NCBI GenBank assembly: GCA_031178045.1 | Contig: JAPSJT010000010.1 | Coordinates: 1 to 36,103 of the forward strand | DNA from: Agromyces sp. | GTDB taxonomy: Bacteria > Actinomycetota > Actinomycetes > Actinomycetales > Microbacteriaceae | Reading direction: 5' to 3' | DNA length: 36,103 nt | Part shown: positions 4,035 through 4,156 of the stretch, in pieces | Numbering within the stretch: position 1 is the first letter of the stretch | Layout: every line of letters begins with the position of its first letter | Notes under the pieces: model-generated | Told to the model about the DNA's origin: nothing | The model's input: the letters and a program-made list of their open reading frames with translations, nothing else | The model's database searches: none | Translations under genes and position numbers: made by a program

Positions 4035-4065
4035 CGGATGCCGCACGCCCGCCCCGCGGCATCCG
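4035..4065. repeat. Perfect 10-bp inverted repeat (hairpin)
   Basis: Arms CGGATGCCGC (4035-4044) and GCGGCATCCG (4056-4065) pair perfectly around an 11-nt loop. Each arm is a copy of the over-represented GGATGCC word of this genome. It lies about 30 nt upstream of the eno -10 hexamer. Confidence 0.75.
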
Positions 4066-4096
4066 CCCGACCGAGTCGGCCGCGCTCGTGCGCCGC

Positions 4097-4156
4097 ATCG
4101 TACCGTCGATGTGGGCCCCACCCGGTGGGCGGTGGGGCGAGGATCGACGGTTCGAT
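4097..4156. repeat. 60-nt two-stem imperfect palindrome
   Basis: Outer arms 4097-4110 and 4143-4156 pair at 13 of 14 positions (one T-T mismatch). After a symmetrical 4x4 internal loop, inner arms GCCCCACC (4115-4122) and GGTGGGGC (4131-4138) pair perfectly around an 8-nt loop. It is not followed by a U-tract on either strand. Candidate structured RNA, terminator or REP-like element. Confidence 0.7.

Follow-up and report, generated by a model that had tools for sequence, protein, structure and literature searches.

A palindrome in the hisS–eno gap of an Agromyces genome is probably the surviving end of a palindrome-flanked nuclease cassette

Introduction

What are the strong hairpins that fill the space between hisS and eno in an Agromyces genome? 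In the analyzed window, that is, the whole 36,103-nt stretch of Agromyces sp. DNA (GenBank assembly GCA_031178045.1, contig JAPSJT010000010.1, positions 1 to 36,103), both genes are encoded on the minus strand and are separated by 386 nt, from the hisS stop at 4326 to the eno GTG at 3939. The original prediction, made from the letters alone, described three strong hairpins in tandem in this gap, and proposed an unannotated structured RNA, a REP-like element, or a protein-binding array upstream of eno. In this study, the hairpins were compared with the corresponding gaps of relatives, with their dispersed copies, and with the genes that such copies accompany.

Results

Hairpins and other features of the hisS–eno gap

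All three predicted hairpins are present (Table 1) and fold beyond shuffled DNA, the minus-strand folding z-score being −4.9 at 4090–4160 and −3.6 at 4030–4160, with 0 of 200 shuffles as good in either case. In the 60-nt palindrome, 13 of 14 outer positions and 8 inner ones pair, with a 4 × 4 internal loop between them. The gap contains neither a U-tract nor a terminator-like site, so that the hairpin-then-U-tract order of an intrinsic terminator is absent here, as the original prediction noted. The Rfam scan of the window and 16 related loci returned tRNAs only, and no structured-RNA family was matched. That the gap is the longest in the window was not confirmed, as crude ORF calls give longer uncalled stretches. 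Further, the three hairpins are two unrelated things rather than one array, as 4035–4065 is an inverted pair of the GGATGCC motif, and 4097–4156 is a putatively nuclease-cognate palindrome.

Table 1. Features of the hisS–eno gap and the eno leader (positions in the window).
Feature	Position	Strand	Basis or remark
eno promoter-like region and leader: TAGACT (3998-4003), GCGGATCACGACGGAGTCGTCC, RBS	3940-4005	-	conserved in relatives
Perfect 10-bp hairpin CGGATGCCGC/GCGGCATCCG, an inverted pair of CGGATGCCG (GGATGCC motif)	4035-4065	.	sequence
5-bp hairpin CCGAC-CGA-GTCGG (CCGAC/GTCGG)	4067-4079	.	sequence; evidence of function, none
Intact eno-side palindrome, arms CGAACCGTCGATCCTCGCCCC / GGGGCCCACATCGACGGTACG on the minus strand, 16-nt variable loop	4097-4156	.
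Decayed nuclease 3′ end; SDDLSATPGAFLARVRRIISART aligns to the last 23 protein positions	about 4184-4254	-
Outer arm of the hisS-side palindrome, CGATCCGCCGAACTTCGCCCTT	4261-4282	-	20/22 letters shared with the family arm; no shuffle among 3000 exceeded 16/22

The hairpin at 4035–4065 is one of the ordinary hairpins that recur in these genomes, separate from the palindrome, and perhaps a terminator. GGATGCC occurs 67 times in the window vs. 7.3 expected from dinucleotides; a higher-order model places most of the excess in the hexamer GGATGC, and in 434 kb of sampled Agromyces DNA no hexamer is more over-represented than GGATGC/GCATCC. In the window's genome, 25 GGATGCC hairpins were counted, vs. 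0 in the reversed control. Facing pairs of the motif number 28, vs. 7 that face away. Sixteen of the 28 inverted pairs lie outside called genes, compared with 180 of 701 single motifs. Among genera, the density is about 1.5/kb in Cryobacterium and Agromyces, and 0.2–0.4/kb in Frondihabitans, Plantibacter, and Curtobacterium. A composite dispersed element made of the GGATGCC hairpin plus the palindrome was considered and dropped, since the two occur independently; one joint match was found, in A. salentinus.

The region 3940–4005, which presumably has a promoter role, is kept in relatives with or without upstream hairpins. The predicted protein-binding array as a regulator of eno is disfavored, because the hairpins lie upstream of this conserved promoter and leader, and because several relatives with a 101–156-nt gap carry the same eno leader without the palindrome. 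Within the leader, GCGGATCACGACGGAGTCGTCC with its small hairpin is nearly invariant across all relatives compared, and the leader may be a conserved regulatory leader in itself.

The 60-nt palindrome belongs to a dispersed family

The 60-nt palindrome is a member of a dispersed family with arms CGATCCGTCGATCTTCGCCC and a 16-nt loop, the arms being conserved within the family and the loop variable. The R1 covariance model matched the window palindrome with 57 bits (E 1.2e-15), and its 4 × 4 internal loop is the decay of one arm. A search with the outer-arm pattern gave copies in several Agromyces genomes, the span being 48 nt throughout; with the covariance models (R1, A2), about 5–12 copies each were detected in G008, G009, G036, G040, G054, and G059, and few or no copies in most other genomes. 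The window's genome has two copies, one in the window (C261:4099-4154) and one at C134:419-473. Thus, two of the checks proposed with the original prediction gave positive answers, as a second copy exists in the genome and compensatory changes exist in the family (paired changes in 9 cells and 4 pairs, with 1 of 500 shuffles as high). Of the three readings offered, the REP-like one comes closest for the 60-nt palindrome, a dispersed repeat with copies in the genome and the genus, although in the narrow sense of REP/RAYT it does not hold (see Discussion).

Three further observations were made on individual copies. The solo palindrome G040:C35:150087-150142 and that of the window (4099–4154) have loop letters in common, which is unusual for this variable part and hints that copies at separate loci descend from a recent common source. 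A window-type palindrome lies in frame within an AnmK-like coding sequence (G044, L118:9889-9946), with a related copy at the matching place of G040. In Agromyces sp. H66 (G048, L309:1635-1935), four tandem palindromes, ~83 nt apart, precede one nuclease gene.

A nuclease cassette in the hisS–eno gaps of relatives and its remnant in the window

In relatives, the hisS–eno gap measures either about 100–440 nt or about 1.2–1.5 kb. The long gaps mostly contain a gene of ~305 aa with matching palindromes on both sides, and in the hisS–eno cassettes seen this nuclease gene is the only gene inside. Window-type palindromes surround the hisS–eno nuclease gene in G009, G040 (A. salentinus JCM 14323), and G059 (A. 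terreus), and the arms of the window palindrome equal those in these three relatives.

An intact nuclease gene was not found in the window's genome, which is 90% complete. The earlier statement that no gene explains the gap is not supported, since the gap retains the decayed 3′ end of a nuclease gene together with a single palindrome arm (Table 1), the former in the place and on the strand expected for a hisS–eno cassette. At the protein level the remnant is weak, with 7.9 bits and two of 500 shuffles higher. At the DNA level, it scored 48 against the gene 3′ end of G009 (shuffle maximum, 37) and 40 against that of A. salentinus (shuffle maximum, 38), and gave no signal against the 3′ end of the A. 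terreus gene. The other arm of the hisS-side palindrome is deleted. Because the hisS-side arm and the nuclease 3′-end stretch persist in the gap, the window is most likely an internal-deletion derivative of a palindrome–nuclease–palindrome cassette. The nearest relative of the window (G051) has a 156-nt gap without any cassette trace. A 12-bp inverted repeat (4199-4210/4270-4281) was also considered as a decayed second palindrome and rejected, its pairing being probably accidental; by arm alignment, its left part corresponds to the arm of the hisS-side palindrome, and its right part falls within the nuclease-derived stretch.

Nuclease genes are generally flanked by matching palindromes

To define the gene sets, nuclease genes were retrieved by protein alignment and not by the Pfam MTES_1575 family, which was too broad as a search family and also matches many large open frames (mostly 1200–2300 aa). 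In the order-wide set of 98 distinct nuclease genes, 80 carry palindromes on both sides, that is, a palindrome within 400 nt of each gene end, and in 64 of these 80 the arms on the two sides are more alike than those of 99% of swapped pairs. As controls, 17 of 211 other genes had palindromes on both sides, and 0 were matched. A second set of 80 genes from named Microbacteriaceae genomes, largely separate from the first with a few Agromyces loci overlapping, contained 49 both-sided genes, 45 of them matched. In a phylum sample, most genomes from beyond the order showed little or no palindrome association, with traces of it in one genus of large genomes. Related nuclease genes, 5–11 per genome, were noted in a genus that belongs to the same class but to a different family and has 5–6 Mb genomes (G351, G277, and G241; loci L255, L256, L273, and L274); some of them have a palindrome just past the stop codon.

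Palindrome types follow nuclease types, and pairing is maintained at the DNA level

Protein distance and arm similarity are correlated (Mantel r = 0.69; 0 of 2000 permutations as high), and flank-to-flank identity is 87% for arms vs. 59% for loops. Mispairs in the palindromes are G-U in 85 and A-C in 80 cases, favoring neither RNA strand; therefore, selection on pairing acts at the DNA level.

Dispersal also follows the nuclease type. All 5 genomes with a hisS–eno nuclease of the GAGTGGGCGA palindrome type have dispersed palindromes of this type, as have 4 of the 55 other genomes (Fisher p = 2e-5), and the same comparison for the window's palindrome type gave p = 0.003. At an orthologous intergenic site common to many genomes, different palindrome types were found among genomes, and the type is that of the resident hisS–eno nuclease in 6 of 6 genomes with both; 3 of 720 permutations tie or exceed this, with swaps of same-type genomes counting as equally good. 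Solo palindromes without a nuclease of their type occur in G008, G007, and the window, and the type of the solo palindrome differs from that of the resident nuclease in G054 and G044.

The nuclease is predicted to join an AbiEi-like and a Vsr-like part

The ~305-aa nuclease matches only MTES_1575, DUF559, and DUF2726 in Pfam, and no transposase domain was found in the Pfam scan. In detail, the AlphaFold model (pLDDT 94.8) gave as best Foldseek matches Rv2827c (1zel), aligned over ~230 columns, and the homing endonuclease I-Bth0305I in its catalytic domain (3r3p, TMt 0.75), with modest E-values of 1.1e-3 and 6e-3, respectively, and PADLOC returned a weak, distant AbiEi match (E 3e-4). The protein is thus predicted to consist of an AbiEi/Rv2827c-like DNA-binding N-terminal half and a Vsr/I-Bth0305I-like PD-(D/E)XK C-terminal domain, so that DNA binding would belong to the former and cutting to the latter. 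Rv2827c and AbiEi bind inverted repeats, including promoter inverted repeats among relatives (PMC7319586). Residues E205, D238, E249, and H255 and their neighbors are invariant in 45 aligned proteins, the dN/dS is 0.14–0.38, and the nuclease is under purifying selection.

Discussion

The 60-nt palindrome is probably the surviving right end of a deleted palindrome–nuclease–palindrome cassette, whose endonuclease would recognize the palindromes and spread or convert them. The cassette anatomy, the matching of arm and nuclease types, the DNA-level conservation, the solo copies, and the loss or replacement of cassettes at hisS–eno were computed; the movement of palindromes and cassette is suggested by these comparisons of sequences. 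The cognate sites of the nuclease would be the palindromes, each with two arms of ~20–24 bp and a short variable loop, both those that flank the gene and the solo ones. The N-terminal part may bind the arms in the way AbiEi-type proteins bind inverted repeats, the nuclease would nick or cut at the palindrome, and repair or copying would then spread and homogenize the palindromes. The cassette could enter or leave at palindromes in either orientation, and palindromic ends without orientation would explain why cassettes occur in both orientations. The window would have lost most of the gene and one arm to an internal deletion of about 1 kb, of which the remnant is the trace.

Several loci hint at such mobility. 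Within one clade, the hisS–eno site holds three different cassettes (one reversed) or none, and in Agromyces sp. H66 (G048) it holds a solo palindrome, the nuclease of that palindrome type being on another contig. In relatives, the nuclease is flanked by two whole palindromes. No target-site duplication was read at the empty sites of the three loci compared, where flanks are too diverged for exact junctions. We put at about even chances the wider proposal that these genes form a categorically new type of repeat system on the chromosome, selfish or domesticated, in which an AbiEi-fold reader is fused to a Vsr-type nuclease, its own palindrome code flanks the gene, spreads, and is rewritten when specificity changes, all without a transposase, and which is widespread in the order, above all in Microbacteriaceae.

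The main rival is a regulatory-only role of the palindromes, in which an AbiEi-like repressor uses them as operators, binding to flanking and solo copies alike, without any movement. The resemblance of the N-terminal half to AbiEi/Rv2827c, whose relatives bind promoter inverted repeats (PMC7319586), would suit such a regulon, as would the location of upstream palindromes, mostly 40–130 nt ahead of the start codon. However, a matching palindrome is also present past the nuclease stop codon, one solo copy lies within a coding frame (AnmK, G044), and the full nuclease active site is kept, so that we regard this reading as unlikely.

An explanation of the whole by transcription termination or RNA stabilization at the ends of genes, with a tandem terminator behind hisS as one case, is improbable. 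While strong hairpins do stand just past the hisS stop and many nuclease stops, and GGATGCC inverted pairs are enriched outside called genes, there is no U-tract and no bias of G-U over A-C mispairs; beyond mere stability, the arms are conserved and nuclease-specific, several relatives are without any hisS–eno hairpin, and palindromes also occur upstream of the nuclease start. For the 4035–4065 hairpin alone, the terminator reading is plausible.

That the palindromes are the ends of a conventional insertion sequence or MITE moved by an unseen transposase is very improbable. The anatomy is element-like (about 1.1–1.2 kb, plus solo copies), but in about 100 cases it is the nuclease gene that the two ends enclose, Pfam scans gave no transposase domain, no target-site duplication was read at the diverged empty sites, and such genes were hardly ever found on plasmids (5 of 72,556 records) or in phages (1 of 50,697). 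A structured RNA acting as a riboregulator in the eno leader, for which the paired changes in the palindrome family could speak, is hardly credible, as the palindrome lies upstream of the conserved promoter-like element, also borders an unrelated gene at both ends and is present at further loci, and has neither an RNA-strand signature (G-U 85 vs. A-C 80) nor an Rfam match.

Returning to the cassette reading, the closest known counterpart is REP/RAYT. RAYTs have been defined by architectural criteria, namely flanking cognate palindromes, gene–repeat coevolution, and a correlation between repeat and gene presence (PMC2817692). As in REP/RAYT and REPINs, a chromosomal gene lies here between two putatively cognate palindromes, with solo copies of the same type, coevolution, and a presence correlation. 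In contrast, the enzyme is a predicted AbiEi–Vsr type nuclease and not a Y1 (HUH) tyrosine transposase, the palindromes are 50–65 nt with arms of ~24 bp vs. 20–40 bp for REPs, and each genome has about 5–12 sites of about 56 nt, vs. >100 for REPs. By analogy, the nuclease–palindrome system appears to work like REP/RAYT, is not one, and has an unrelated enzyme.

With the Vsr-like (EDxHD) homing endonucleases such as I-Bth0305I, the nuclease shares the C-terminal catalytic fold and the active-site pattern, whereas it is not within an intron or intein, is flanked by two whole palindromes, apparently without splitting one target, and has an AbiEi-like DNA-binding half. The AbiEi/Rv2827c antitoxins of type IV toxin–antitoxin systems have the N-terminal fold in common with it, and binding to inverted repeats would be expected by analogy, while the C-terminal part here is a predicted nuclease, and no AbiEii/DUF1814 toxin gene was noticed beside it. 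The C-terminal domain belongs to the MTES_1575 REase/DUF559 families (PF18741, PF04480); MTES_1575 was first named as a Vsr-type REase domain (PMC3710099), in a member where it forms a single domain within a ~2000-aa helicase–HEPN protein.

In the open-access literature, no description was found of palindromes flanking DUF559/MTES_1575 genes. To our knowledge, short palindromic repeats with a dedicated enzyme are known essentially as REP/RAYT, built on HUH transposases, and the element described here looks like an undescribed kind of enzyme-plus-repeat element. The REP/RAYT architecture and coevolution would then reappear around an unrelated nuclease, whose genes mostly bear no annotation beyond DUF559. 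Dozens of nucleases would be available, each naturally paired with its candidate recognition sequence, so that a specificity code could be tested directly and site-specific nucleases might be gained. The system would also account for many unexplained intergenic hairpins in these bacteria.

Other variable genes were also observed at this site. Three hisS–eno gaps (L030, L037, and L018) hold two glycosyltransferases and a sigma-factor-like protein, and the site may be an insertion hot spot.
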